Assembly: GCF_040802235.1 (NCBI RefSeq)
Contig: NC_133158.1
Span: 153,710,401-153,774,400, forward strand
Reading direction: 5' to 3'
Length of the DNA stretch: 64,000 nt
DNA from: Manis javanica
Taxonomy: Eukaryota > Chordata > Mammalia > Pholidota > Manidae
Positions 6,001-25,247 of the stretch are shown piece after piece. The position numbers and the translations under genes are program-made. Under the pieces are notes generated by a model. That model was not told the DNA's origin. It saw only the letters and a list, made by a program, of their open reading frames with translations, and did no database searches. The number at the start of each line of letters is the position of its first letter. The first letter of the stretch is position 1.

Positions 6001-6134
6001 TACTAAACACAAATTTTTGTATTTAAAAATGCTAAGGGTCTCAAGCTGAAAAGAGAATTCTCCCAAAGTTGTATCCGAAACTACAATGTTTGGCCAAGCA
6101 TGCCTATCAAATATTTTAAGTAAGATTTCCATAC
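1..6134 (-). other. TSC22D2: TSC22D2 intron 1 (5' part; continues beyond the left edge)
   Basis: Everything left of the exon 1 donor is AT-rich noncoding sequence in the direction of TSC22D2 transcription. I saw no exon resembling the C-terminal TSC-box/leucine-zipper coding region that must follow exon 1, so the remaining exons should lie beyond position 1. Apart from one MIR near 58-262 and short homopolymers (for example C/T-rich near 313-340) no repeat is obvious. Open frames here are short and lack coding character. The intron call follows from the donor site and the known gene structure of a large first exon; conserved regulatory elements cannot be judged from one sequence. Confidence 0.85.
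58..262 (-). repeat. MIR SINE fragment in TSC22D2 intron 1
   Basis: The plus strand shows the reverse-complement MIR core: a tcatttaattctctcaa-like part, then 'ccatttttcatagggggaaacaag', followed by the 'ctcaaggtcaaatgcctcag' and 'catgtctgactccattgt' parts that match the tRNA-related end. It is heavily diverged, as expected for this ancient family. Boundaries are approximate. Confidence 0.65.
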
Positions 6135-6138
6135 CTGT
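6129..6138 (-). other. TSC22D2: Splice donor of TSC22D2 exon 1
   Basis: On the minus strand the exon ends GAAGACAG and the intron begins GTATGG, a good U2-type donor. It splits the Arg codon after two bases (phase 2), in agreement with the family's exon structure. Read-through gives only YGNLT and a stop at 6116-6118, so intron retention would produce a 661-residue protein without the leucine zipper. Confidence 0.85.
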
Positions 6139-8101
6139 CTTCATCACCATCAACAGGAATAGCTATGCTGAATACAGAAGTGGCGAGACTGTTCATAGGT
6201 GTCAACTGAATGGGGTTTGCCAGGGCATCTGCAACAGGCTTCACAACAGGCTTATTTTCAGCAATGAGAGAAAGTGGTGGTTGAGGTAGGGGTTCTGATT
6301 TTCTTCTAGTATCGTCAACTTGCCCGACTAAAGGCTGGGTCTGGGTCTGAAACTGGCTTAGATCAGACTGTGGTAGACTTGTTGGTGCACTGGGTGTGCC
6401 CTGCGCCAAGGGCAGCCCAACTTGCTGGATTATGCTGCCGCTCCTGCTGACTGGCGTATGGCTGCTCAGCTGCTGCGACTGGATCAGAGGCGCGGGTACA
6501 TTTGGCATAGCAACAGAAGTGGTAGACATACTAGGCACGCTGGGAGCGGGCATGGCTGCAGGCACATTTGAAACTCCGGGCACCATGGCGTGGGAGCCAA
6601 CAGGCACGGCTGATGGCGCACTAGTGCCACCCAGCTGTGGTGGAGGCACGGTCTGGGGCTGCCCAGCCCCGGTAGGAACCAGGCCCGGCTGCACCGAGCC
6701 TCCCATTGTAGCCGGGGACACTCCAGCCGGCTGGCAAGGCACGGCCTGTACGCCTTGCGCGGGTCCCGGCCCCGGGGCCACAGCTTCACCGGGCAGGGAA
6801 GACGTGCCCATTATCTGCACGCCCACTGAGACGGCATTCTGGCCGGTGACCACGGGAAGGCTGGCAGCCGCGGCGGGGCTTGCTCCAACGCCGGTGGACG
6901 ACGGTTGCGCGGGGCTTGGTGGCTGCAAGCCGACCACGTGCTGCTGCAGGTACTCACTCTGACCAGAGGGCAACAGATGCGCCGGCGGTAGCTGAGTCTG
7001 GTGATACGCGAACTGCTGGGGCTGCTGCGTTGCAGAAGTGCCGACCGCTGTGCCCGGCTGCGGAGGCAGAACCATGCCGGGCTGCGCCAAGTTTACATTC
7101 GTCAGCGGCAGACCCTGTCCACTGGGCGTCTGGGGACCGACGCCGGGCCCGGTTCCCTGGGGCTGGGTTGGCTGCGCGACTGCCATCATTTGCGGCGACC
7201 CGGCCACGGCTCCAGGGAACGGCGGCGTTGGAACCGAGCTTTGAGCCACAGCCCCACCTACGGGCGGCGGCGGAGGCAGTGGCTGCCCAACGCCAAAACT
7301 CTGCGGCTGGGCCGGAGCGGGCTGGCTCATTTTCTCCGACGGGGGTAGCTGTGACACAGCAGTCAAGGAACTGTCAGTTCCCGAGTCGGGCCCGTGCGCC
7401 CCCTGCATGGAGGCCACTACCACCACCACAGATCCTCCGGTGGCGCCCAAACCGCTGTCCCGCTCTGCAGTATGGTCAAAAGTACTGCTGTGCCTAATGC
7501 AATCCCCGGACCTGGTCAGAACGCTGCTGTCTGAATCTCGTTCATAGTATTCCATACACGTCCATCGGCCGCGTCTATAGGGCTCCCCGCTCCCATGGTC
7601 CAGTTTGATCACACGAAAACGGGAACTACAAGTGGTGGGGGGCTGCGACGGGGCTGCAGTCCCTGGCCCGGCAGATGAGCCCGCGACCGGGGGGGTGCCG
7701 GGTGCCCCCGAGGAAGGGGCCGAGGCGGCGGCCGCTGCCAAAGTATTAGCCAGCGCCCCAGGCCCGCTCCGTGCCGAAACGGCTCCTCCTCCGTTGGCTG
7801 GAGCAGCCGCTGCGGCCGCCAGCTGCCCGTCCAGGAGGAGGTTTGGGGAGACGGTCCCGGGAGTCTCCGCATCTCCCACATTGTTGAGCGTCTCTTCGGA
7901 GGAGCTGCGCTCGCATACCTCCTCAGGGCCATAATCCGTAGCCCGAGAAACGTCGAATATCTCGGAGGAGACGTCCTCTGTGCGTGACTCGTCCGGGTCG
8001 TCCAGACTCTCGGTGTCCTCCGTGATGCTAGTGGCCACCTGGGCGGTGGTGACACTGGTGATCTGGAAGCAGCTCTTCTTCTTGGCCGGCATCTTGGACA
8101 T
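6135..8101 (-). CDS. TSC22D2: TSC22D2 exon 1 coding sequence (655 complete codons plus 2 nt of a split codon)
   Basis: This is the long first coding exon of TSC22 domain family member 2. It starts with [17 protein letters not shown] and the acidic stretch up to about residue 75 (conserved TSC-box 1 of long TSC22D proteins). A second conserved block at about 157-190 contains [20 protein letters not shown]; its RFRV at 161-164 fits the RFxV/I docking motif of the SPAK/OSR1 conserved C-terminal domain. Between the blocks are Ala runs (95-100, 122-126); afterwards there is a Val run (225-229), a Pro run near 273-278 and a long disordered Pro/Gln/Ser-rich region. The last ~60 residues ([20 protein letters not shown] to VDGDEDR) are the conserved lead-in to the C-terminal leucine zipper, which is encoded by exons outside the window. 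Family members dimerise through that zipper and act with NRBP1/WNK kinases in osmotic and growth control; TSC22D2 has also been reported to bind PKM2. The start ATG has A at -3; a second in-frame ATG is codon 4. No frameshift or early stop is present. Confidence 0.96.
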
Positions 8102-8232
8102 GGTGAAGAAGGCTGGAGGGCAGAAGCACGCCAGCTCCTCTGTGATCTCGCTGGAAACCAGAAGGGCAGAGCACGGGCCCCTAAAGACAAAGTCCGAGTC
8201 TGCGCTGGGGTCTGAGGCCCGCCGCTGTTAAG

Positions 8233-8271
8233 TCACTGGCAGATCCGGACGCGGGCCGCTCTGTGAGACAT
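8233..8271 (-). other. Upstream ORF 1 in the TSC22D2 leader (12 codons plus stop)
   Basis: ATG at 8271-8269 opens a frame of 12 codons and stops with TGA at 8235-8233, 131 nt before the main ATG. It exists only if transcription starts upstream of it, which is likely. Such a uORF could modulate translation of TSC22D2; function is inference. Confidence 0.4.
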
Positions 8272-8749
8272 CCTCCTCGCCGTTTCCTTCTGTGTGTCCG
8301 TCTCCTCGGCTCTACCCGCCTCACTCGTGCGGCGGCTCCTCCTCCCTTTTCGCCTCCCGCAGTTGCGGCGCCTCAATTCAACCCCCTCAGAGGCGGCGAG
8401 GGCGCGATCTCAGGCGCGGGCCGGCTGCTTCCTCCTGCCTCCTCCGAGCCGCCGTGGTCAGTCCAGCTCGGCGCAGCGCGCGGCCAGCAGGCCTTAGCTG
8501 GGGGTGGGAGTGGGAGGGCGAAGGGGAGGTGGCGACGGCGGGAGGGGCGGTGCTGCCCCGCTCGGGCTTCTCAGGCCGGTGCCGCCGTCAGCTTCGGGCT
8601 CCCGGACGCTGAGGAAAGAAGGGGAAGGAGTGGAGAGTCTGGAGCCGGGGATTCCTGATTAAGTCAGGAGCCGTGGGGCTGGGGCTGACTGAAGGTCCGC
8701 GGGCGGGCGACGGAGCCAAGGCGCGGGCGGGAGGCCCTTCCTCTCGGCT

Positions 8750-8776
8750 CTAGCCGGAGCTCAGCCCCAGAGACAT
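8750..8776 (-). other. Upstream ORF 2 in the TSC22D2 leader (8 codons plus stop)
   Basis: ATG at 8776-8774 opens a frame that ends with TAG at 8752-8750. It lies about 650 nt before the main ATG. It is transcribed only if the start site lies to the right of 8776. Confidence 0.35.
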
Positions 8777-9207
8777 GTCGACAGTCTCTGACGGAAACCC
8801 GCTCCGGGGGAGGGGAAAGCCGCCTCGGTCCTCCCCTCAGAGGGGGAGCCGCCCCCGCGGGCGGGCGGCGGCGACGACGGTCTCGGCCTCCCCGCGCGGC
8901 TCCTGAGCGAGTGAGGGGCGGCGGCGGCGGCGGCCGGCTTGGCCGGAGAGCAGAGGCGCTCCGGCTGTGTGAGAGACCAGTGGTCGCTTCTTCGGCTCCT
9001 CCTCGGTGCGCCTGGTTCGCAGACCCTGGAGAAACAAATTCAAACTGCTGAAGCGGCGGCTGGAGCTCCCTCCCCTCGGCCAAGATGGGGCTGAAATGGC
9101 CGCGCCAGGGATGCTGGGAAGAGCAGCAGCGCCGCCACTGCCGCCGCTGCCGACTAAAATGCCGCCGCAGCCGCAGCTACCGCCAGCGCCGCAGCGGCCG
9201 CCGTTCC

Positions 9208-9233
9208 GTGACGCACCTGCGTCGTGGCGTCAC
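9208..9233. promoter_or_regulatory. Inverted pair of CRE-like half-sites (GTGACGC...GCGTCAC)
   Basis: GTGACGC at 9208-9214 and its exact reverse complement GCGTCAC at 9227-9233 flank a 12-bp GC-rich centre. TGACG/CGTCA are CREB/ATF half-sites. The position at the upstream edge of the island fits a core or proximal promoter element of TSC22D2. Confidence 0.5.
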
Positions 9234-9289
9234 CGCCCCGCCTCCTCCGGTTTCCTGCAGTTTCGCGTGGAGTTCTGAGGGGGAGGCGG

Positions 9290-9299
9290 TGGGCGGGGC
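9290..9299. promoter_or_regulatory. GC box (Sp1/KLF type)
   Basis: GGGCGGGGC at the distal edge of the CpG island, just before the sequence turns AT-rich. It matches the Sp1/KLF consensus. Other C/G-rich boxes occur between 9230 and 9290. Confidence 0.5.
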
Positions 9300-9310
9300 T
9301 AAAGATTAAA

Positions 9311-11129
9311 AAAGATGAGTTTTTTTAAATTTAAAAATTTAAAAACTTTAATTGTGCGCTGTAGATTTTTAACAGTTGAAAAGCTAAACACTTAAATTCC
9401 AAGCCTAGAAGAGTTTATAATCTCAATCGAATGTTTTTATATCGGTTCTGAAACACTAGAAGGCTGGAGGTCATGTGCCGTCTCTACTGTTAAGCAAAAT
9501 CTTAAGTGAAACAAGGCGATAGGAATGGGAGTCGGGGAATTAGCTAGGATAAAAAGGGAGACGGCTGGAGCAACCGAAATCACTTAAGAAGCCTTTCCTG
9601 AAAACAAATGTTGACCACTGTAGTCAGAGTGAAATGTTGAGAGAAATAGTGATGATTAGCTAACAATAGCAAGCCAGATTGAGGCAGAAAAATGATGTTT
9701 CAGCCAGAAATTTTGTCTCCAAGAATGGCATCAGGAGATGGTTATTTGCCCAGGGTGAGGTCAGTTTAAAAAAAGATTAGAGGTTACCAGCATAATCCTA
9801 ATTTTCCTGAATTTGTTGTGATTCCAGCTTCGATCATTTAAACTCTTGAGGCTGTTTTTACTTTTAGCACGAAATCAGCTTATGGGCTCCATGTAGAAGC
9901 TACTGCGTTAGTTACAGTTATTTCATTAGTTTATTCTAAAACTTTGAGTTTGGAGCCAGAGTGTTAAAAGGTTTGGTTTGGTCCAGAACCAAACAACCAG
10001 AAAGAGTCAGAAAGCACTCATTCCTGTCCCAGTGAAGAGTGCAGATATGAAGATACTAATGAATTTATTATCTTTTAGCTACTTTCTGGCAAAAAAAGGT
10101 AAAAAATGGTAAGGCATTCTTTTAAACAGTTAAAAAATGGAGAAGGTGGCTCGAAGTTTGATATACCAATACACCATTTAGGTAAAATCTAAGAAGTCCT
10201 GCTGGAAATCAAGATTTCATATCTATTACAGCTTTAGCAATCATATCATGATGACTTATATAAATAAATTAATCATTATACTCAGTTCTCTAATCTTTGA
10301 AGAGTGAAAATACTTTTATCCCAAAGGATGTTACAATAATTAAAATTTATAATTTTTTAGATCCTTACTGTAAATAATATGCAGAAGTATGTCTTTTAAC
10401 CTTAGTAGAAACCATGTCCTCCAAATCCAAGTGACTGAGGTTAGGATGTGAAATAAGACCATATAATAATATCCCTGTTTCTTAGGGGGTGGGAGAAAGT
10501 AAAAGAACAAAGTATAACATTATGCTGTTGTGGCAAAGATAGCTAATGGACTGTTTTGTTTCTAAATCTGTAATTTCCATTATTGTTACAGTTTTTCATC
10601 AGTAAATTAGATCAGCAGGTTAAATCCTATATGAATTTATAAGAGCTTAATTTAATTTTGGGTTGATTTACCATATTTTTAAAAGTGATGGCCTATGGGT
10701 GATGTTGAGCAGGTGGCTTTTGGAAAAATAAGTATCGGATGCCTGCTTGTCCTATTATATTACTTTCTTACATAAACTTTTTGATTACTTGTTATGATTC
10801 TCTTAGGTCACACATTTAAAGGAGAAAACCTTAATCCATAATACCATTGCTCCTTGAAGAACATGTGAAGTATTTATTATGAAGTGAAAGTGTTGTTAAA
10901 TATAATTTGGAAGAGATCAGTAAGTGGGCTCTATTTCTGGTAAAGATAGGGTTAACAATATTAAAAGATATCTTAGCAAAAAATAAGATTTATATGGTTA
11001 AAATGTTTTATTTATATACTTAAGGGTTTATGTATATATAAACTAATACAGTGGTTATTTCGAAAGTTTTCCAAAAGTTTTAAAGGCCCTAACTTCTTTT
11101 GTACATTTGCTCTTTTAAAACATAGAAAG
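9311..11129. other. Intergenic, AT-rich, no gene seen
   Basis: Upstream flank of TSC22D2. The composition drops sharply to AT-rich directly after the promoter. I see no coding frame with support, no RNA gene and no clearly assignable repeat. Confidence 0.6.
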
Positions 11130-11770
11130 TTTATTGCATAAAAAACTGAAGGAACAAAATGGCAGCAGACTCAGAGACTCCAAGAATGAACTAGTGGTTA
11201 CCAAAGGGGATGGGTGTGGGAGGGCGGGTGGGAAGGGAGGGAGAAGGGGACTGAGGGGTATATGTTTAGTACACATGGTGTGGGGGATCACGGGGAGAGC
11301 AGTGTATTGCAGAGAAAGGACATAGTGGATCTCTGGCAACTTGCTGCACTGATGGATAGTGACTGCATTGGGGTATGGGTGGGGAGTTGATAATATGGGT
11401 AAATGTAGTAACCACATTGTTTTTTCATGTGAAACCTTCATGGAAAATGATAACACATGTGACAGTGTTTTGGCATCTTGAGAAGAAAAGATAGCATGTC
11501 AACGTGATACTATTGGCAGTAAAATTGTCAAATACCATTTGTTAATTAAAAAATAAAGTTACTGGGTATACATGATTTTTATGAAGCAGTCATATTCTGT
11601 TGTAGATGAGCTAGTTGTTTACAGACATTTAATGGAATATTCTTTGGTAAGATGAATCATCACCATCTATTCTTTCTTTCTTGTATATATGAATTTGGTG
11701 TATGCACAGGTATAATTATGTATATCAATCATACCTTAATAAAAAATTAAAAAAAATTTATTGCATAAAA
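11130..11770 (+). mobile_element. 5'-truncated L1 3' end with 14-bp target-site duplications
   Basis: TTTATTGCATAAAA occurs at 11130-11143 and again at 11757-11770, bracketing a plus-strand L1 3' UTR. It begins 'aactgaaggaacaaaat', continues through 'gtggttaccaaaggggat' and a G-rich tract (11209-11258), and ends 'tatatcaatcatacctt' with AATAAA and an A-rich tail. The intact duplications mark a fairly recent insertion. The L1 3' UTR is interrupted at 11445-11723 by foreign sequence that is duplicated 2.15 kb away. Confidence 0.9.
11445..11723 (+). repeat. 279-bp duplication, copy inserted in the L1 3' end
   Basis: Identical at every position I compared to 13599-13877 (offset 2154). On its left the L1 reads 'gtgaaaccttcat' and on its right 'atatcaatcatacctt', parts that are contiguous in L1 3' ends. 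The segment is therefore an insertion into the L1, and this copy is the derived one. It has no poly(A) of its own and no target-site duplication. Confidence 0.92.
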
Positions 11771-13598
11771 CTGCTATGAAGAAATTCTGATTGTTGCGAA
11801 TAGGTTTGAAATCACTTTATAAAGGACAGAAAAATCATATTCCTATCATCAAATTACCAAAAGCTATGTAATTCATAGTTGGTCCACAGAGGATTAAAAG
11901 CCTTCACATAATTGATTAAGATGATAGAAAGCAGGATATATGTGCAAGTATGTGTGCACCACGTGTAGAGAGTTGCTAGTAAATAAAATGGTAGCCTAAT
12001 TCCCTAGAACTGGGGAGATCCCTGGAGTTCCAAACCTCAAGATTAGGGGTCTTAATTCAGCTACCCAGTCTCCATGCCTGCCCCTAGAAACCATATGTGG
12101 AAACTGTGGAAATCCTGGATTAATGCTTCAGAACCCCCAACTTGACTGTCCTACACCTAGTACTGCCCTCAAAGACTTAATGTTAAGCAATGTACAGGAA
12201 GTACATTTAGGAGGAACAATGGGGTGGGATGAGGAGGACAACTAAGAGACTAAGGACTAGTTTTACTGATGAAAAACAGAAAACAAACACAAAAAGAACA
12301 ACTACTGCAGTAAGACCTTTTCATCATTTGAGAGCATCATACTCCCAAATTCTGCTAGGTTATCATCTAACTGTGTCAAGAGGATTAACTGAAGGTCATT
12401 TGTTTCATAGTCATGAGATCCTGGAATGTGAACTGTAGATACTCAGGAAAACCTGACGTTTTTTTTTTCAATGAATGCGTATTATATTTAGTAATGGTAT
12501 ATTAATCTAAACACTGGCACAGAGAAAAGAAAATCATACTTTCAGTAAAAATTAAGCCAACTGGCCTAGGCTAAGAGAAGTAACCCTTTAGAATTAATGC
12601 TATGAGATAATGACATTTATTGAGCCCTCCCTGTGTGCATCAGGAATTCGATAGCTTGTATCCCAGCCAAGTTTTTCTGGGATTTAGAAATGTTTATTTT
12701 CTGTTTTTATGACCAAATTATTAGAAAAATATAAAATCGAAGACTAGTTTTCAGGTTCCAAAAAACATTTGCTAGAAATAAGTATCAGTTGTCTAAACAA
12801 GTAGTACTTGATTTATTACTATTATTTTTTATATAAACCATAGTTACTATATGATTTTTCTGTGGTTCCATATCTGGAACAATGTCATATTAATAACTCC
12901 TTGCAGTGTGCCCAATGTGTAATATTATCTAAAAAGGAAAAAAAAATGTAATGGAAGAGGACTTAGGCTAATGAAATTCCATTAATACTTTTATAAATAT
13001 GAATATAATCTGTTTGAGATGCACAATCGTTTTCATCATCTGAAAGTAAATGATGAGAATGAAGTGAGTAAAAGTTTCACATTTAAAAAGAGATATTTTT
13101 CCAGAGTTTGATATACTATGAAACAATGATGTCTTTTTTTAATAGTGAAGATTTCCTTGAATCACAAAGACTTTTGAAGTTCAGGCAAAATGTAGCAATT
13201 TAGTAGAAGAAAGGGTGCATTTTAAACTAATAATAAATTTAATGTCCTAGTAAATCTATTTTCTTTTATTATGGAACTTAATTTAGAATCTAAAATACTA
13301 ATTCTGTGGTTCTAAAATATAGTTTAAATGCTGCAATGTAAGGCAACTTCAACAGAAAATGTACTGACGACTGTATTACTTTTTTTTTTAAACATTATGT
13401 ATGACCACGTGGGATATAATTAAAGAAATTTACACTAATTGGAGAAAATGAGATGAAGTGTAAGCTCCAGTTTTGCTGGAAACTTGTGTTGTGACAGCTG
13501 ACAAGTCTATTAATCCCTCAATTTTCTTATTGTTAAGAAGAAGCAAGATTGTGGTGAAAAGGTGTTAAACTACCAATCCCACTGAAAGAGTGGATGGG
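11771..13598. other. Intergenic, no gene seen
   Basis: AT-rich unique-looking sequence between the truncated L1 and the second copy of the 279-bp duplication. Only short chance frames are present and no repeat could be assigned with confidence. Confidence 0.55.
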
Positions 13599-13877
13599 AA
13601 ATGATAACACATGTGACAGTGTTTTGGCATCTTGAGAAGAAAAGATAGCATGTCAACGTGATACTATTGGCAGTAAAATTGTCAAATACCATTTGTTAAT
13701 TAAAAAATAAAGTTACTGGGTATACATGATTTTTATGAAGCAGTCATATTCTGTTGTAGATGAGCTAGTTGTTTACAGACATTTAATGGAATATTCTTTG
13801 GTAAGATGAATCATCACCATCTATTCTTTCTTTCTTGTATATATGAATTTGGTGTATGCACAGGTATAATTATGTAT
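13599..13877 (+). repeat. 279-bp duplication, presumed source copy
   Basis: Direct repeat of 11445-11723 with no mismatch. Here it continues smoothly into flanking unique DNA with no element boundary. The outer flanks diverge at once (aaatgat preceded by G here and A there; tatgtat followed by T here and A there), so the junctions are sharp. Confidence 0.92.
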
Positions 13878-15490: not shown

Positions 15491-15526
15491 TTTTATTTTT
15501 TATTTTTTATTTATTTTTTTTTTTTT

Positions 15527-15775
15527 AACTGTTCACATCCCATATCTTCTTTTAATAGTAGATAGTCTATAGTCACAAGATTTTGGAGCGCTGCAACTTG
15601 CACTTCTCCTAATTCTTGGTTGAGTTCCGACAGTATAGATCCAGTCAAATTTGTTGTTTTACTGTATGCACAGGCCAGCTTAGATAGCTCCTTCTTCATT
15701 CCAATGGCAAGTCCAGGAACCGGTGGGATGAATGCAGCTACAACTGCAACAGCGTCAGGATCTTTGTTGAAGTTT
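15527..15775 (-). pseudogene. ERV env transmembrane-subunit fragment (short copy)
   Basis: An open frame on the minus strand reads through a hydrophobic Ala/Val/Pro-rich segment resembling a fusion peptide region. It continues into the TM ectodomain with KLACAYSKTTNLTGS, the LQN-type immunosuppressive-region neighbourhood (ALQNLVTIDYLLLKE) and the first cysteine of the disulphide loop (MGCEQ). The poly(A) tail cuts it there. The retroviral env assignment rests on this ordered set of motifs. The surface subunit and the membrane anchor are absent, so it cannot encode an envelope protein. Confidence 0.7.
15551..15556 (-). terminator. ATTAAA polyadenylation signal of the short chimera
   Basis: ATTAAA at 15556-15551 lies about 25 nt before the start of the A-rich tail at 15526, the usual spacing. 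The long copy reads GTTAAA at the corresponding place and continues without a tail, which explains why the two copies end differently. Confidence 0.6.
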
Positions 15776-16021
15776 TTTGATGATCATCTTCTGGAATGAC
15801 TCTTCCAGAGAATGTTGACATTGGAAGTTCTTCTTCATATCGTATCTTAATTCGTTTTCTGGGTAGCCAAATTAGGCTTTGATCCTCTGTTAGTCTATTC
15901 TTGGGTTCTGTGATTCTGTTGCTGTTGTGTTCCTCCAGTTTTTCCTTTGTTCTTATACTCCACAGATGAGTGAAATCATTTGGTATTTCTCTTCCTCCGC
16001 TTGGCTTATTTCACTGATCTT

Positions 16022-16538
16022 GCTCAGTGATTTTACAACCTCAAAAGTAAGAGAAAGTAGACAGTTTTTGTTGTCTATCTAATAAAAAAGTTACTTTTTA
16101 TTTCTGGAAATAAGCAAATCATACAATTTCTGGACCTGAAAGTAGACTTATCATAGCAAAGTGATTTGTTTACATGGGTTGTTATGTTTTTATTATGGAT
16201 TATTTTGTTCTTAAGTTGGATTCTATGTTTTTGCTTGATTTTACTTTAAAATATGAAGGAAAATCAGAATAGTGAGGAGTTTGCTTGGTAACATAATTTC
16301 TTAAGCAATGTCGAAAATACGACAGTAATGTACTGAGTGGCCAAGCAGATATGAGTCATTTTGCTAAGTTAGTCCAGTGTTAATGGACTAAATAATTTCA
16401 AAGACGCCAAAAAGGGTTTTGTGCCATTATCATTATCATGAGGAATGTTTTAAAGTACTCATTTGTTTGATGTACTTGCTAAGCACTTTTTAAAGGAAGC
16501 TAAATGAATATAGTTCTTGTTCTCTAAACAAGTGGTAA
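16022..16538. other. Host sequence between the two chimeric elements
   Basis: About 0.5 kb of AT-rich DNA with no gene or recognised repeat. It separates two independent insertions of related L1-ERV elements. Confidence 0.55.
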
Positions 16539-16572
16539 TTTTTTTTTTTTTTTTGAGAGGGCATCTCTCATA

Positions 16573-16578
16573 TTTATT
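16573..16578 (-). terminator. AATAAA polyadenylation signal of the long chimera
   Basis: AATAAA on the minus strand (16578-16573), 18 nt before the poly(A) tail that starts at 16554. It serves as the end of the whole composite transcript. Confidence 0.8.
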
Positions 16579-16701
16579 GATCAAATGGTTGTTAACAACA
16601 ATAAAATTCAGTATAGGGGGGTCAATGCTCAATGTACAATCATTAATCCATCTCAAGCCTAATTCTCGTCAGTCTCCAATCTTCTGAAGCATAACGAACA
16701 A

Positions 16702-16758
16702 GTTCTTACATGGTGAACGAATTCTTACAGAGTGAATAAATTCTTACATGGTGAACAG
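16702..16758. repeat. Three tandem 19-bp units within the LTR
   Basis: gttcttacatggtgaacga, attcttacagagtgaataa and attcttacatggtgaacag follow each other without gaps. Short tandem repeats in U3 often act as enhancer repeats; that role is inferred. Confidence 0.75.
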
Positions 16759-16877
16759 TACAAGGGCAGTCATCACAGAAACTTTCGGTTTTGATCATGC
16801 AATATGACCTATAAACCATCAGGTCAAATATGAATATTCATTTGATTTTTGTACTTGATTTATATGTTGATCCCACA

Positions 16878-16885
16878 TTTCTCCT
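16878..16885 (-). other. Polypurine tract preceding the LTR
   Basis: AGGAGAAA immediately before TGTGGGATC on the minus strand, preceded by a TAA-rich stretch. This is the plus-strand primer position in retroviruses and supports the LTR boundary at 16877. Confidence 0.55.
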
Positions 16886-17514
16886 ATTATTATTATTATT
16901 TTTGTTTTTAATAAAATGCTGAAGTGGTAGGTAGATGCAAGATAAAGGTAGAAAACATAGTTTAGTGCTGTAAGAAGGCAAATGTAGATGATCAGATGAT
17001 CAGGTGTGTGCCTATGGACTAAGTATTAATCCAGGCTAGACAAGGGCAGCAAGACATCCACGGATGCAGAAGATTTCTCTCAAAGCAGGGGGGGTGAGGT
17101 TCTGAGCCTCACCTCTGTTGATCCCCAAATTCTCACCTGATGGCCCCCCTGCGACTGTGCCTGTCTTAGGTTGTTCCTCCCTTGAGGAATCTTACCCGTC
17201 TCTGGCTAACCAGTCATCTTCCGGGGCCATACAGGGAAATGTAAAGTTGGTAAGTGAGAGAGAAGCCATATTGTTTGCAAAGGTTAGCTTTTTACTTCTT
17301 TGCAGATTTATGCCCTGTGGCTTCTATGCCCAGCACTTGTCTCGAGGTATCTTTACCACCTGGAGGAATTATGATACTCGGTAAATTCGATATGAGGCAC
17401 GAATTCTATTTAAAGTTTGTAATTAGGAAGGAAGAAGAAAAGCTATAGATGTAGCATATGAAGGAAACTTGGGAGGATTGATTATTTCTTTGACATATCT
17501 TCTTGTATAGTACC

Positions 17515-17990
17515 TTAAGTATGTATAGGTTTTAAACTACTAACTAATTTGCACACACATATTGACATAATAGGAATACGGTGACATAAACAAAGCAAAT
17601 CTATAATTACCAGCCATCTCCAGTGAAGCCAAGAAAACCATTTAGGCACCCTAGGCATTTGTGAAAATTTATCTATGATATGATGGATATTTTCCAACTG
17701 TACTTGAACCATCAGACAAATTAAAGCAGCCCATTTCTGGGATCTGTTCACATCCCATATGTTCTTTTAACCATAGATAGTCTATAGTCATGAGATTTTG
17801 GGGTGCTACAACTTGCACCCCTCCCAACTCCTGGTTGAGTTCCAACAGTACAGATCCAGTCAAATTCGTTGTCTCACTGTATGCACATGCCAGCCTAGAC
17901 ATCTCCCTCCTCCTTCTCATGGCAAGTCCAGGAGATGGTGGGCTGGATGCAGCCACAACCGCAGCATCGTCCGGATCCCTGTGGAGGCTT
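17515..17990 (-). pseudogene. ERV env transmembrane-subunit fragment (long copy), broken
   Basis: A frame from about 17990 to 17669 contains SRLACAYSETTNLTGS, QNLMTIDYLWLKEH and GCEQIPEMGCFNLSD, the ordered hallmarks of a retroviral TM ectodomain. In place of the usual CX6CC the first of the paired cysteines reads Gly. The frame ends after about 95 residues at 17669; hydrophobic, membrane-anchor-like residues continue in another frame down to about 17515. The surface subunit is absent and the upstream ~150 nt resembles protein-coding sequence in a different frame. It is a relic, not a functional envelope gene. Confidence 0.7.
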
Positions 17991-18101
17991 TTTGATGATC
18001 ATCCCCCGGCACGAGTCCTCCAGAGAGTGCTGATGCCGGAAGCTCCTCCTCATATCGTATCTTAGTTCATTTTCTGGGTATCCAAGCTAGGCCTTGATCT
18101 T

Positions 18102-18654
18102 CTGCGTAGAAACAAACAGACCCTTTGCCCACACTTTGACATGCCCTCTATACCACTGTGCAGAACTCATTGGAGGTCAGCACACAGGAACTGCTTTTTT
18201 TTTTTTTTTTTAATTAAGAGAAAGGAATATTATCAGAAAAGAGTACCTCCATAGCTGATCATCTGACACCCTTTAAGTGATCAACATTAAGGATATTTAA
18301 AGCATGCGTTGATCTTTGATTTACCAATAGTTTTATCCTGTTAAGGAGTAATCCCCCTTTTCTTTCTTTCTTTCTTTTTTTTTTTTTAAATTTTTAATCT
18401 ACACTTACCTGAAGAATACTATGTTTACTATGCTCTCCCCTATATCAGGTCCCCCCTAACAACCACATTACGGTTACTGTCCATCAGCTTAGCAAAATGT
18501 TGTAGAGTCACTACTTGTCCTCTCTGTGTTGTGCAGCCCACCCTCCCCTTTCTCCCTCCCCCCCATGCATGCTAATCTTAATACCCCCCTTCTTCTTCCC
18601 CCCCCTTATCCCTCCCTGCCCACCCATCCTCCCCAGTTCCTTTCCCTTTGGTAC
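18102..18654 (-). other. 553-nt intron-like segment between L1 3' UTR and ERV
   Basis: Starts GTACCAAAGG after CAG (donor at 18655/18654) and ends GTTTGTTTCTACGCAG before AAGATC (acceptor at 18102/18101), with a pyrimidine-rich run before the AG. A CTGAC branch-point candidate lies about 70 nt upstream of the acceptor. The short chimera at 15491-16021 lacks precisely this segment. It contains most of the L1 3' UTR, two A-rich runs and ~150 bp of unassigned sequence. Confidence 0.75.
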
Positions 18655-18729
18655 CTGTTAGTCCATTTTTGGGTTCTGTAATTCTGCTGCTGTTTTGTTC
18701 CTTCAGTTTTTCCTTTGTTCCTATACTCC
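18390..18729 (-). other. L1 3' UTR with G-rich tract
   Basis: Runs from the ORF2 stop to an A-rich stretch at 18389-18362. On the minus strand it carries repeated G-runs between about 18640 and 18535 (GGGGAGG, GGGTGGG, AGGGAGGG, GGGGGGGG), a potential G-quadruplex region as is usual for mammalian L1 3' UTRs. A related G-rich tract appears in the truncated L1 at 11209-11258. Confidence 0.8.
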
Positions 18730-21700
18730 TCAGATGAGTGAAATCATTTGGTATTTCTCTTTCTCCGCTTGGCTTATTTCACTGAGCATAATACTCTCCA
18801 GCTCCATCCATGTTGCTGCAAATGGTTGGATTTTTCCACTTCTTATGGCTGAGTAGTATTCCATTGTGTATATGTACCACATCTTCTTTATCCATTCATC
18901 TACAGATGGACATTTAGGTTGCTTCCAATTCTTGGCTATTGTAAATAGTGCTGCGATAAACATAGGAGTGCATCTGTCTTTCTCAAACTTGATTGCTGCG
19001 TTCTTAGGGTAAATTCCTAGGAGTGGAATTCCTGGGTCAAATGGTAGGTCTGTTTTGAGCATTTTGATGCACCTCCATACTGCTTTCCACAATGGTTGAA
19101 CTAATTTACATTCCCACCAGCAGTGTAGGAGGGTTCCCCTTTCTCCACAGCCTCGCCAACATTTGTTGTTGTTTGTCTTTTGGATGGCAGCTATCCTTAC
19201 TGGTGTGAGGTGATACCTCATTGTAGTTTTAATTTGCATTTCTCTGATAATTAGCGATGTGGAGCATCTTTTCATGTGTCTCTTGGCCATCTGTATTTCT
19301 TTTTTGGAGAACTGTCTGTTCAGTTCCTCTGCCCATTTTTTAATTGGGTTATTTGTTTTTTGTTTGTTGAGGCGTGTGAGCTCTTTATATATTCTGGACG
19401 TCAAGCCTTTATCAGATCTGTCATTTTCAAATATATTCTCCCATACTGTAGGGTTCCTTTTTGTTCTATTGATGGTGTCTTTCGCTGTACAGAAGCTTTT
19501 CAGCTTAATGTAGTCCCACTTGCTCATTTTTGCTGTTGTTTTCCTTGCCCGGGGAGATATGTTCAAGAAGAGATCACTCATGTTTATGTCTAAGAGGTTT
19601 TTGCCTATGTTTTTTTCCAAGAGTTTAATGGTTTCGTGACTTACATTCAGGTCTTTGATCCATTTTGAGTTTACCTTTGTATATGGGGTTAGACAATGGT
19701 CCAGTTTCATTCTCCTACATGTAGCTGTCCAGTTTTGCCAGCACCATCTGTTGAAGAGACTGTCATTTTGCCATTGTATGTCCATGGCTCCTTTATCAAA
19801 TATTAATTGACCATATATGTTTGGGTTAATTTCTGGAGTCTCTAATCTGTTCCACTGGTCTGTGGCTCTGTTCTTGTGCCAGTACCAAATTGTCTTGATT
19901 ACTATGGCTTTGTAGTAGAGCTTGAAGTTGGGGAGTGAGATCCCCCCTACTTTATTCTTCTTTTTCAGGATTGCTTTGGCTATTCGGGGTCTTTGGTGTT
20001 TCCATATGAATTTTTGAATTATTTGTTCCAATTCATTGAAGAATGTTGCTGGTAATTTGAGAGGGATTGCATCAAATTTGTATATTGCTTTCGGCAGGAT
20101 GGCCATTTTGACGATATTAATTCTTCCTAGCCATGAGCATGGGATGAGTTTCCATTTATTAGTGTCCCCTTTAATTTCTCTTAAGAGTGACTTGTAGTTT
20201 TCAGAGTATAAGTCTTTCACTTCCTTGGTTAGGTTTATTCCTAGGTATTTTATTCTTTTTGATGCAATGGTGAATGGAATTGTTTTCCTGATTTCTCTTT
20301 CTATTGATTCGTTGTTAGTGTATAGGAAAGCTACAGATTTCTGTGTGTTGATTTTGTATCCTGCAACTTTGCTGTATTCCGATATCAGTTCTAGTAGTTT
20401 TGGAGTGGAGTCTTTAGGGTTTTTTATGTACAGTATCATATCATCTGCAAATAGTGACAGTTTAACTTCTTCTTTACCAATCTGGATTCCTTGTATTTCT
20501 TTGTTTTGTCTGATTGCCGTGGCTAGGACCTCCAGTACTATGTTAAATAACAGTGGGGAGAGTGGGCATCCCTGTCTGGTTCCCGATCTCAGTGGAAATG
20601 CTTTCAGCTTCTCGCTGTTCAGTATAATGCTGGCTGTGGGTTTATCATATATGGCCTTTATTATGTTGAGGTACTTGCCCTCTATTCCCATTTTGCTGAG
20701 AGTTTTTATCATGAATGGATGTTGAATTTTGTCAAATGCTTTTTCAGCATCTATGGAGATGATCATGTGGTTTTTGTCTTTCTTTTTGTTGATGTGGTGG
20801 ATGATGTTGATGGATTTTCGAATGTTGTACCATCCTTGCATCCCTGGGATGAACCCCACTTGGTCATGGTGTATGATCCTTTTGATATACTGTTGAATTC
20901 TGTTTGCTAATATTTTATTGAGTATTTTTGCATCTACGTTCATCAGGGATATTGGTCTGTAATTTTCTTTTTTGGTGGGGTCTTTGCCTGGTTTTGGTAT
21001 TAGGGTGATGTTGGCTTCATAGAATGAGTTTGGGAGTATTCCCTCTTCTTCTATTTTGTGGAACACTTTAAGGAGAATGGGTATTATGTCTTCTCTGTGT
21101 GTCTGATAAAATTCCGAGGTAAATCCGTCCGGCCCCGGGGTTTTGTTCTTGGGTAGTTTTTTGATTACTGTTTCAATTTCTTTGCTTGTAATTGGTTTGT
21201 TTAACTTTTGTGTTTCTTCCTTGGTCAGTCTTGGGAGGTTGTATTTTTCTAGGAAGTTGTCCATTTCTTCTAGGTTTTCCAGCTTGTTGGCATATAGGTT
21301 TTCATAGTAGTCTTTAATAATTCTTTGTATTTCTGTGGAGTCTGTCGTGATTTTTCCATTCTCATTTCTGATTATGTTGATTTGTGTTGACTCTCTTTTT
21401 CTCTTAATAAGTTGGGCTAGAGGCTTATCTATTTTGTTTATTTTCTCAAAGAACCAGCTCTTGGTTTCGTTGATTTTTGCTATTGTTTTATTCTTCTCAA
21501 TTTTGTTTATTTCTTCTCTGATCTTTATTATGTCCCTCCTTCTGCTGACTTTAGGCCTCATTTGTTCTTCTTTTTCCAGTTTTAATAATTGTGATGTTAG
21601 ACTATTCATTTGGGATTGTTCTTCCTTCTTCAAGTGTGCCTGGATTGCTATATACTTTCCTCTTAAGACTGCTTTCGCTGCATCCCACAGAAGTTGGGGC

Positions 21701-22545
21701 TTAGTGTTGTTGTTGTCATTTGTTTCTATATATTCCTTGATCTCTATTTTGATTTGTTCATTGATCCATTGATTATTTAGTAGCATGTTGTTAAGCCTCC
21801 ATGTGTTTGTGAGCCTTTTTGTTTTCTTTGTAGAATTTATTTCTACTTTCATACCTTTGTGGTCTGAAAAATTGGTTGGTAGAATTTCAATATTGTGGAA
21901 TTTACTGAGGCTCTTTTTGTGAGCTAGTATGTGGTCTATTCTAGAGAATGTTCCATGTGCACTTGAGAAGAATGTATATCCTGTTGCTTTTGGATGTAAA
22001 GTTCTATAGATGTCTATTAGGTCCATCTGTTCTAGTGTGTTGTTCAGTGCCTGTGTGTCTTTACTTATTTTCTGCCCGGTGGATCTATCCTTTGGGGTGA
22101 GTGGTGTGTTGAAGTCTCCTACAATGAATGCATTGCAGTCTATTTCCCTCTTTAGTTCTGTTAGTATTTGCTTCACATATGCTGGTGCTCCTGTATTGGG
22201 TGCATATATATTTAGAATGGTTATATCCTCTTGTTGGACTAAGCCCTTTATCATTATGTAGTGGCCTTCTTTATCTCTTGTTACTTTCTTTGTTTTGAAG
22301 TCTATTTTGTCTGATATTAGTACTGCAACCCCTGCTTTCTTCTCACTGTTGTTTGCCTGAAATATGTTTTTCCATCCCTTGACTTTTAGTCTATGCTTAT
22401 CTTTGGGTTTAAGGTGAGTTTCTTGTAAGCAGCATATAGATGGGTCTTGCTTTTTTATCCATTCTATTACTCTATGTCTTTTGATTGGTGCATTAAGTCC
22501 ATTTACATTTAGGGTGACTATTGAAAGATATGTACTTATTGCCAT
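18730..22545 (-). CDS. LINE-1 ORF2 protein, endonuclease and reverse transcriptase, full length (1271 aa)
   Basis: The start is the ATG at 22545, nine codons inside the longest open frame, since that frame begins with TTG. The apurinic-like endonuclease domain occupies about 1-235, with LNVNGLN near residue 13, the catalytic Glu in LQETHL (about 42), GDFNTPL (about 145) and NFSDHKG (about 230). The reverse transcriptase follows with [17 protein letters not shown] and the catalytic LFADDMILY near residue 700. The C-terminal Cys-His cluster [18 protein letters not shown] is intact. Length and all motifs match active mammalian L1 ORF2 (about 1275 aa), and there is no stop or frameshift. The enzyme nicks target DNA and primes reverse transcription of L1 RNA, and also acts in trans on other polyadenylated RNAs. 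Confidence 0.95.
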
Positions 22546-22740
22546 TGCAGGCTTTAGATTCGTGGTTACCAAAGGTTCAAGGTTAGCTTCTTTAGTATCT
22601 TACTGCCTAACTTAGCTTGCTTATTGAGCTGTTATATACACTGTCTGGAGAGTCTTTTCTTCTCTCCCTTCTTATTCCTCCTCCTCCCTTCTTCATATGT
22701 TGTGTGTTTTGTTCTGTGCTCTTTTTAGGGGTGCTCCCAT

Positions 22741-23664
22741 CTAGAGCAGTCCCTGTAGGATGCCCTGTAGAGGTGGTTTGTGGGAAGCAAATTCCCTCAG
22801 CTTTTGCTTGTCTGGGAATTGTTTGATCCCACCATCATATTTAAATGATAGTCGTGCTGGATACAGTATCCTTGGTTCAAGGCCCTTCTGTTTCATTGCA
22901 TTAAGTATATCATGCCATTCTCTTCTGGCCTGTAGGGTTTCTGTTGAGAAGTCTGATGTTAGCCTGATTGGTTTTCCTTTATAGGTGACCTTTTTCTCTC
23001 TAGCTGCCTTTAAAACTCTTTCCTTGTCCTTGATCCTTGCCATTTTAATTATTATGTGTCTTGGTGTTGTCCTCCTTGGATCCTTTCTGTTGGGGGTTCT
23101 GTATAATTCCATGGTCTGTTCGATTATTTCCTCCCCCAGTTTGGGGAAGTTTTCAGCAATTATTTCTTCAAAGACACTTTCTATCCCTTTTCCTCTTTCT
23201 TCCTCTTCTGGTATCCCTATAATACGAATGTTTTTCCTTTTGTATTGGTCACATATTTCTCTTAGTGTTGTTTCATTCCTGGAGATCCTTTTATCTCTCT
23301 CTATGTCAGCTTCTATACGTTCCTGTTCTCTGGCTTCTATTCCTTCAATGGCCTCTTGCATCTTATCCATTCTGCTTATAAATCCTTCCAGGGATTGTTT
23401 CACTTCTGTGATCTCTTTCCTGACATCTGTGATCTCCTTCCGGACTTCATCCCACTGCTCTTGCATTTTTCTCTGCATCTCATCCCACTGCTCTTGCATT
23501 TTTCTCTGCATCTCATCCCATTGCTCTTGCATTTTTTTCTGCATCTCTGTCAGCATGTTCATGATTTTTATTTTGAATTCTTTTTCAGGAGGACTAGTTA
23601 GGTCTGTCTCCTTCTCAGGTGTTGTCTCTGTGATCTTTGTCTGCCTGTAGTTTTGCCTTTTCAT
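22741..23664 (-). CDS. LINE-1 ORF1 protein, RNA-binding nucleic-acid chaperone (307 aa)
   Basis: Starts at an ATG (23664) with MKRQNYRQTKITE. A Glu/Lys/Gln-rich coiled coil covers about residues 30-130 and contains three near-perfect 11-residue units (MQEQWDEMQRK). The RRM-like domain starts at KNIRIIGIPEEEE (about 145) and the C-terminal domain runs through RRTTPRHIIIKMARIKDKE to the end (PDKQKLREFASHKPP). The protein is somewhat shorter than human ORF1p (338 aa). It trimerises via the coiled coil and coats L1 RNA. ORF2 begins after an unusually long spacer of 195 nt. No internal stop or frameshift is present. Confidence 0.95.
   Translation of the reverse strand: MKRQNYRQTKITETTPEKETDLTSPPEKEFKIKIMNMLTEMQKKMQEQWDEMQRKMQEQWDEMQRKMQEQWDEVRKEITDVRKEITEVKQSLEGFISRMDKMQEAIEGIEAREQERIEADIERDKRISRNETTLREICDQYKRKNIRIIGIPEEEERGKGIESVFEEIIAENFPKLGEEIIEQTMELYRTPNRKDPRRTTPRHIIIKMARIKDKERVLKAAREKKVTYKGKPIRLTSDFSTETLQARREWHDILNAMKQKGLEPRILYPARLSFKYDGGIKQFPDKQKLREFASHKPPLQGILQGLL
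23451..23560 (-). repeat. 33-bp tandem repeat, three copies, in the ORF1 coiled coil
   Basis: The 33-bp unit around 'tgctcttgcatttttctctg' occurs three times with only a few substitutions. Because 33 is divisible by three, each unit adds 11 residues in frame. Copy-number change here would lengthen or shorten the coiled coil. Confidence 0.85.
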
Positions 23665-24030
23665 GGTGATAGAGATAGTCTGCAGAGCTGGTACAAGTGA
23701 CCGCTGGAAGAGCTTCCCTTCTTGTTGGTTTGTAGCCTTTTCCTGGGAGAATAGCGACCTCTAGTGGCTTGTGCTGGGCAGCTGTGCGCAGACAGGGCTT
23801 CTGCTTCCTGCCCAGTTGCTTTGGGGTTTATCTCCACTGTTGCTGTGGGCTTGGCCTGGCTGGGGCTGTTCCTCCAAAATGGTGGAGCCCCGTTAGAGGG
23901 GGAGCAGCCAGGAGACTATTTATCTCCGTAAGGGGCCTCTGTGCTCCCTGCTGCCCAGGGGGTTAGAGTGCCCAGAGATCCCCAGATTCCCTGCTTCTGG
24001 TCTAAGTGACCTGTCCTGCCCCTTTAAGAT

Positions 24031-25010
24031 TTCCAAAAAGCACTCTCCAAACCAAAACAACAACAGCAACAATGAGAGAGGGAACAGAAAGGAAAAAAAA
24101 AAAAGAAAAAACACGCGATTTTTTTTTTTTCCTCAGGTGCCGGTCCCAGGCACCCGCGCACTGGTCCTGCTGCCCTGTCTCCCTAGCTTTCAAGGCTTCC
24201 AAAAAGCACCCACCCACCGGTCCCGCAGGGAAGGAACGCTCAATATTCTTTGTCCTCAGGCACTGGTCCCACGCACCCGCTCACCAGTCCTGCCGCCCTG
24301 CCTCCCTAGCACCGGGGTCCCTGTCCCTTCAAGGCTTCCAAAAAGCACTTGGCAAAAAGAGAGAAAAAAAAGGGGAAAAACGCGCGATTTCTTCCGTCCT
24401 CAGGTGCTGGTCTCAGGCACCCACCCACCGGTCCCACAGGGAAAAATGCGGGATATTCTTTGTCCTCAGGTGCCGGTCCCAGGCACCCGCTCACCAGTCC
24501 CGCCGCCCTGCCTCCCTAGCACCGGGGTCCCTGTCCCTTTTAGGCTTCCAAAAAGCACTCGCAGAAAAGAGAAAAAAAAAAGGGGGAAAAACGCGCGATT
24601 TCCTCTGTCCTCAAGTGCCGGTCTCAGGCACCCGCCCACCGGTCCCGCAGGGAAAAACGGGGGATATTCTTTGTCCTCAGGCGCCGGTCCCAGCCACCCG
24701 CTCACCAGTCCCGCCACCGTGCCTCCCTAGCACTGGGGTCCCCGTCCCTTCAAGGCTTCCAAAAAGCGCTTGCCAAAAAGAGAAAAAAAAAAAAAGGGGA
24801 AAAACGCGTGACCTCCTCCGTCCTCAGGCACCGGTCTCAGGCACCCGCCCCCAGGTCTCGCAGGGAGAAACGCGGGATATTCTTTGTCCTCCGGCGCTGT
24901 TCCCAGGCACCTCCTCACCGGTCCCGCCACCCTGCCTCCCCAGCAACGGGGGCCCGTCCCTCTAAGGCTTCCAAAAAGCGCTCGCCAAAAAAAAAACTGC
25001 TCCGGTTTCT
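24031..25010 (-). repeat. Tandem monomers (~211 bp) in the L1 5' UTR
   Basis: The anchor ttccaaaaagc recurs at 24031, 24197, 24336, 24546, 24757 and 24969. The last three intervals are 210, 211 and 212 bp; the first two (166 and 139 bp) are shortened units. Each full unit itself has two related halves with cctcaggtgccggtc-type sequence. The architecture parallels the monomeric promoters of mouse L1, but I see no sequence relation. Confidence 0.9.
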
Positions 25011-25225
25011 CTCCACCCGCCGGGAGCCGGGGGGAGGGGCGCTCGGGTCCCGCCGGGCTGGGGCTTGTATCTTACCCCCTTCACAAGGCGCTGGGTTCTT
25101 GCAGGTGTGGATGTGGTCTGGATGTTGTCCTGTGTCCTGTGGTTTCTATTTTAGGAAGATTTTTCTTTGTTATATTTTCATAGCTCTATGTGTTTTTGGG
25201 AGGAGATTTCCACTGCTCTACTCAC

Positions 25226-25243
25226 GCCGCCATCTTGGCTCCC
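25226..25243 (-). promoter_or_regulatory. YY1-type motif at the L1 5' end
   Basis: GGAGCCAAGATGGCGGC at the start of the element matches the conserved CAAGATGG (YY1) site at the 5' end of mammalian L1s, which directs accurate start-site choice. Its presence supports a complete 5' end. Confidence 0.8.
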
Positions 25244-25247
25244 GCCT

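Follow-up and report, generated by a model that had tools for sequence, protein, structure and literature searches.

The window, the whole 64,000-nt stretch of Manis javanica DNA that was analysed, carries two related minus-strand elements in which LINE-1 (L1) sequence continues into sequence of an endogenous retrovirus (ERV). The best overall explanation for them, to which we give a probability of roughly 0.84, is an L1-ERV fusion unit with a GT-AG intron that has been moved both unspliced and spliced. The splice-like join is real and is not limited to the window locus; judging from the DNA copies, it appears to be a product of splicing.

A long and a short L1-ERV copy in the window

Self-comparison of the window paired 15529-15889 with 17744-18104 (361 nt, 81.7% identity, ERV part) and 15877-16017 with 18646-18785 (141 nt, 91.5%, L1 3' UTR), the two matches agreeing in order and strand. 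In the long copy the shared parts are separated by 553 nt running from GTACC to CGCAG, with the edges GACTAACAG/GTACC (18655/18654) and TTTCTACGCAG/AAGATC (18102/18101), while in the short copy the same two edges are joined directly (GACTAACAG/AGGATC, 15887/15886). The initial annotation had described this arrangement, and both self-comparison and alignment agree with it. It had also taken the edges for splice sites: they are GT and AG with a pyrimidine tract, and CAG stands at both; however, the donor CAG/GTACCA is only a moderate one. The features of both copies are collected in Table 1.

Table 1. Features of the two L1-ERV copies in the window
Feature	Positions	Strand	Basis
Long copy, full-length unspliced L1-ERV unit, about 8.7 kb	16539..25247	-	5' start and 3' end common to 6/6 other copies with fetched ends
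Long copy, L1 5' UTR with repeats of about 211 bp near 24206-24991	23665..25247	-	self-comparison and copy comparison
Long copy, L1 ORF1, open, 307 aa	22741..23664	-	Pfam Transposase_22 and Tnp_22_dsRBD
Long copy, L1 ORF2, open	18730..22572	-	Pfam endonuclease and RVT_1
Long copy, first part of L1 3' UTR (exon side), ending at donor CAG/GTACC	18655..18729	-	read and alignment
GT-AG segment of 553 nt (putative intron), absent from spliced copies	18102..18654	-	alignment, pattern counts; present in L071
Remaining L1 3' UTR, inside the intron	18388..18654	-	read directly; 84.9% in L071
Segment X, about 148 nt, inside the intron	18212..18359	-	read directly; 87.0% in L071
End of pol-like frame with acceptor TTTGTTTCTACGCAG/A, about 93 nt	18102..18194	-	single frame runs through the acceptor
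ERV exon, with the pol-like end followed by the env TM fragment	17669..18101	-	TM match to ASLV TM
ERV 3' part ending AATAAATATGAGAGATGCCCTCTC, putatively LTR-like	16555..17745	-	same end in 16/20 spliced and 6/6 long copies
Long copy, A-tail	16539..16554	-	read directly
Short copy, L1 part, 5' truncated, ending at the join	15887..16017	-	self-comparison, alignment
Short copy, ERV exon, old type, cut short after ATTAAA	15527..15886	-	alignment, sister comparison
Short copy, A-rich tail	15491..15526	-	read directly

The ORF2 frame of the long copy is listed as 1280 aa from a TTG and measures 1271 aa from the ATG at 22545. Downstream of it, the L1 3' UTR is followed in turn by an A-rich run (about 18358-18387), segment X, a run of 17 A (18195-18211), the pol-like piece of about 93 nt, the env TM fragment, the ERV 3' part and the terminal A's. 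Segment X is probably an older 3' transduction, and the A-runs suggest that two nested read-through events lie behind the long copy.

The frame at 18102-18194 we take to be the end of pol; for this piece Pfam gave no match and PDB two weak, unrelated ones, which lend the assignment no support. The TM fragment, a 95-aa open piece (17669-17956), matches the TM of avian sarcoma/leukosis virus (ASLV; E 9.8e-07), with no match in Pfam and no relative among the viral contigs searched; a search of Rfam gave no match. As the frame is read here, the acceptor, previously assigned to env, lies instead at the end of the pol-like frame, upstream of TM. In neither type, old or young, does SU stand between the pol-like end and TM. 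A provirus would have two LTRs enclosing gag, pol and env; the analysis covers the 3' piece of the ERV, and the sequences retrieved include no provirus free of L1. In public assemblies, 25 relatives of the TM piece were seen on short contigs (at most 1336 bases), in old-like, young-like and mixed forms.

The ATTAAA of the short copy stands at 15553-15558, with the A-rich tail about 25 nt downstream, as had been reported. This motif occurs in none of the 16 sister copies that could be read (20 tried), so that its presence with an A-tail here speaks for a polyadenylated RNA at the window locus, and for early polyadenylation at this ATTAAA. Among the 40 scored matches of a genome search, the 39 besides the window start at the edge of the L1 part of this copy or no more than 2 nt away. 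Target-site duplications were looked for at both window copies and none was found. Since the short copy is of an old spliced type and the long copy of a young type (see below), the latter is not the parent of the former.

Elsewhere in the window, a 284-bp direct repeat (11440-11723 and 13594-13877) is 99.6% identical over a distance of 2.2 kb, and 6001-10000 forms a block of 58-61% GC, the rest of the window being mostly at 30-48%.

The splice-like join recurs across the genome

The genome searched comprises 2.56 Gb in 63 contigs. The old-type join was found at 90 places (51 exact and 39 with one mismatch, the window short copy included) and the young-type join at 99 (69 exact and 30 with one mismatch), the backward control pattern giving 0 for each; these searches reach the exact join with at most one mismatch in the pattern, other joins lying outside them. 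With 189 places in two sequence types and a control of 0, the join is more than chance. A join existing at a single locus, which the initial annotation had named as favouring a chance deletion, is excluded by this count. A short join pattern also matched viral contigs at seven loci (L009-L015).

Twenty of 40 scored matches, picked by similarity to the join, were fetched, and the exact join is present in all 20. Eight carry L1 from the 5' UTR onward, some with internal gaps; 16 share the common ERV 3' end (poly(A) site), which was not found in four. Target-site duplications exceeded ten shifted-flank controls in 10 of the 18 copies tested, the other eight giving none above the controls or none that was clear. 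No intact ORF2 was found in the 20 copies, where the longest open piece is 750 aa. Staggered deletion ends, also named beforehand as a sign of deletion, were seen in none of the 20, a weak result because the copies were picked by join similarity and the patterns find the exact join only.

Young spliced copies were set against the window long copy. Three of them show 97.6-99.9% identity to it in ORF2 and 96.1-99.2% over the env piece, and eight more 94.0-99.9% in the ERV part, two of these over less than 600 nt. For the young spliced copy L049, the upstream part (L069) contains both ORF1 (307 aa) and ORF2 (1271 aa) as open frames; another, L062, breaks off some 20 nt short of the join (L070).

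The earlier proposal that an L1-ERV transcript was spliced and retrotransposed is supported in its core: at many loci with tails and flanks of their own, a donor from the L1 3' UTR is joined to an acceptor of the ERV, followed by polyadenylation and retrotransposition of the L1 type, as indicated by the join in 20/20 copies and duplications in 10/18. Its other part, a chance read-through at this place, does not hold, the L1 and ERV together being themselves a mobile unit.

The unspliced unit is a young mobile family

A 561-nt query running from the L1 3' UTR to the ERV exon gave 604 candidates, and the best 40, which were scored, were all at 99-100% identity. When up to one mismatch is allowed, the 28-nt young-type unspliced acceptor occurs at 7363 places (control 0), upstream L1 being established among these for the 40 scored and the fetched copies. 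Thus spliced copies make up about 1% of the counted places of the young type (99 vs 7363). All six long copies with fetched ends have the same 5' start and the same 3' end, at the ERV poly(A) site; duplications of 13-16 nt were found in four, and none was clear in two, as in the window long copy. When 1.4 kb of the ERV part is compared, ten long copies agree with that of the window at 99.5-99.9% identity. The 8.7-kb L1-ERV unit is a young mobile family, and the fusion is a standing one.

As expected of an L1, the unit has an ORF1 with L1 RNA-binding domains and an ORF2 with endonuclease and reverse transcriptase, and at family level it has an A-tail and target-site duplications (10/18 spliced, 4/6 long). 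It ends not in its own 3' UTR but at the ERV poly(A) site, and we file it as an L1 variant. The repeats of about 211 bp (24206-24991) belong to the young L1 5' UTR; old spliced copies match there only in pieces.

Ancestry of the intron and alternative origins of the join

The old-type unspliced acceptor was found at one place, L071. The three intron parts of this copy are 84-87% identical to those of the window, with the same donor and the acceptor GTGTCTATGCAG/AGGATC. Because an old-type unspliced copy survives, the 553-nt segment is ancestral. Near the end of the young L1 3' UTR there is a second, consensus-like donor, CAG/GTAAGT (18403-18411), where L071 reads CATGTAATTG.

A tree was built that comprises 31 copies (every fetched long copy, every fetched young spliced copy and 8 of the 20 old spliced ones), with bootstrap values that had not settled. 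L071 groups with three old spliced copies at a supported fork (99/97), the young spliced L067 pairs with the unspliced L059 (99/89; one shared variant, 42% of columns), and the spliced L061 and L062 stand in the youngest clade among unspliced copies. The spliced or unspliced label changes four times on the tree, three of these changes being forced by starred branches, against a mean of 9.9 when shuffled. The label is thus strongly clustered, and most spliced copies inherit the spliced state. If a lost intron never returns, we count, by our own reading of the tree, at least seven losses over the starred branches.

The presence of spliced and unspliced copies together in old and in young branches favours repeated splicing over one deletion. 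A single microhomology deletion in a source copy, later spread by ordinary L1 amplification, would account for the CAG at both edges and for the clustering of the spliced state; however, GT and AG edges with a pyrimidine tract speak against it, and unspliced copies lie inside both the young and the old branches, where one loss misfits the starred branches unless the intron was regained. We consider this origin improbable. Regain itself, in which a lineage mostly spliced through its history had its intron recently restored by recombination with a surviving unspliced copy, is to us just as improbable. The trunk between the old and the youngest clade (middle branches L063, L065 and L050) is indeed represented in the sample by spliced copies only, but the unspliced young sample is biased to the youngest copies because its members came from among the 40 best-scoring matches to the window, and the original splicing event would still be required.

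The join could also have been made by template switching between L1 RNA and ERV RNA during reverse transcription, and L1 reverse transcriptase does make U6/L1 chimeras (PMC13174262); however, the same GT and AG edges are not expected of such a process and a contiguous unspliced template exists, which leaves this the least credible of the alternatives, with very little probability.

The preferred reading, an intron-bearing fusion unit moved in both forms, sits less easily with the ratio of spliced to unspliced places, which differs sharply between the old type (90:1) and the young type (99:7363). Old unspliced copies are undercounted because the acceptor pattern holds a decaying CpG, and L071 has exactly that change, but a 90-fold undercount seems unlikely. 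In our view, most old spliced copies trace back to a source that was itself spliced.

A separate observation concerns 17746-18101, the 355 nt of ERV sequence that follow the join. A comparison of this piece with L016-L035 and L048-L068 gave 59 fixed differences between old and young types, of which 31 are A to G and 4 G to A when counted from old to young as the direction of comparison. The bias is confined to this piece, the remaining ERV part being without such a pattern, and the oldest young-type copy, L063, already carries 52 of the 59 young differences. Editing, deamination or replacement by a related ERV copy could have produced the cluster.

Proposed mechanism

We propose that an L1 carrying X as a short 3' transduction was brought, in sense orientation, to the end of pol in an alpha-like ERV, the simplest route being insertion, and that transcripts running past the L1's own end were polyadenylated at the ERV signal. 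The fused RNA would have become a new mobile unit that combines an L1 promoter, ORF1 and ORF2 with a retroviral 3' end and that L1 proteins copy by target-primed reverse transcription. Its intron would use a donor in the L1 3' UTR and an acceptor in the ERV, perhaps the ERV's own env acceptor. The young family keeps the intron in most copies, a minority presumably arising from spliced RNA, and the old spliced subfamily was probably amplified from spliced sources. Splicing spares the promoter, the ORFs and the poly(A) signal that is used, so that a spliced copy could itself act as a source. The structures, counts, exact joins, tails, duplications, the tree and the one spliced copy with open ORFs are observed directly; from them we infer that the spliceosome removed the segment, that the ERV env acceptor was used, in what order the fusion was assembled, and that spliced copies are active.

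Comparison with known systems

The comparisons made here draw on parts of the cited papers. SpIREs of human L1 arise by splicing within the 5' UTR or from the 5' UTR to ORF1, lose promoter function and are generally dead on arrival (PMC5860796). They resemble the present case in that a spliced L1 mRNA is retrotransposed by target-primed reverse transcription, leaving an exact intron-lacking copy with GT-AG edges, a course that here is read from DNA; in contrast, the donor here is in the 3' UTR, the acceptor is in an ERV, and promoter and ORFs are kept. With regard to being dead on arrival, one spliced copy (L049/L069) has both ORFs open. SVA and SINE-R elements likewise have an ERV-derived 3' end (HERV-K in SVA) and are moved by L1 proteins, but SVA is non-autonomous with Alu-like and VNTR parts, whereas the L1-ERV unit carries ORF1 and ORF2 (PMC7353768). 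In L1/mRNA chimeras formed by splicing or 5' transduction, joins between L1 and other RNAs are also fixed by retrotransposition; there host exons lie 5' of L1, while here the ERV partner lies 3' of L1 and the family is large (PMC13174262). Mouse L1 lineages, too, gain new UTR sequence and then amplify, although by 5' UTR recruitment and swaps between L1 families and not through a retroviral 3' end with an intron (PMC3600994).

For Manis pentadactyla, a 2025 paper describes an alpha-like lineage of ERVs, and a single LINE-1 located inside a gamma ERV; the parts of it that were covered make no mention of the L1-ERV family (PMC12584738). Searches of PMC full text showed, in the parts covered, no L1 family that had acquired a retroviral 3' end by such a route. 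The repeat may already be in a repeat library under some name.

Significance for L1 biology

For an L1, splicing normally comes at a cost, and its 3' UTR and poly(A) site are as a rule its own. Here a lineage with open ORFs, at thousands of places, carries a retroviral 3' end and a retained intron. We hold it somewhat more probable than its opposite that the youngest high-copy L1 of this genome is an intron-bearing L1-retrovirus fusion moving unspliced and spliced, that its splicing recurs, that spliced copies are autonomous and founded a subfamily of their own, and that a retrovirus gave an L1 lineage both a new 3' end and a working intron. The family offers natural variants of different age for studying how far an L1 needs its native 3' end, how it escapes from its own end, and how splicing is balanced against the copying of unspliced L1 RNA, and the unit is an L1-encoded counterpart of the retroviral 3' end of SVA.
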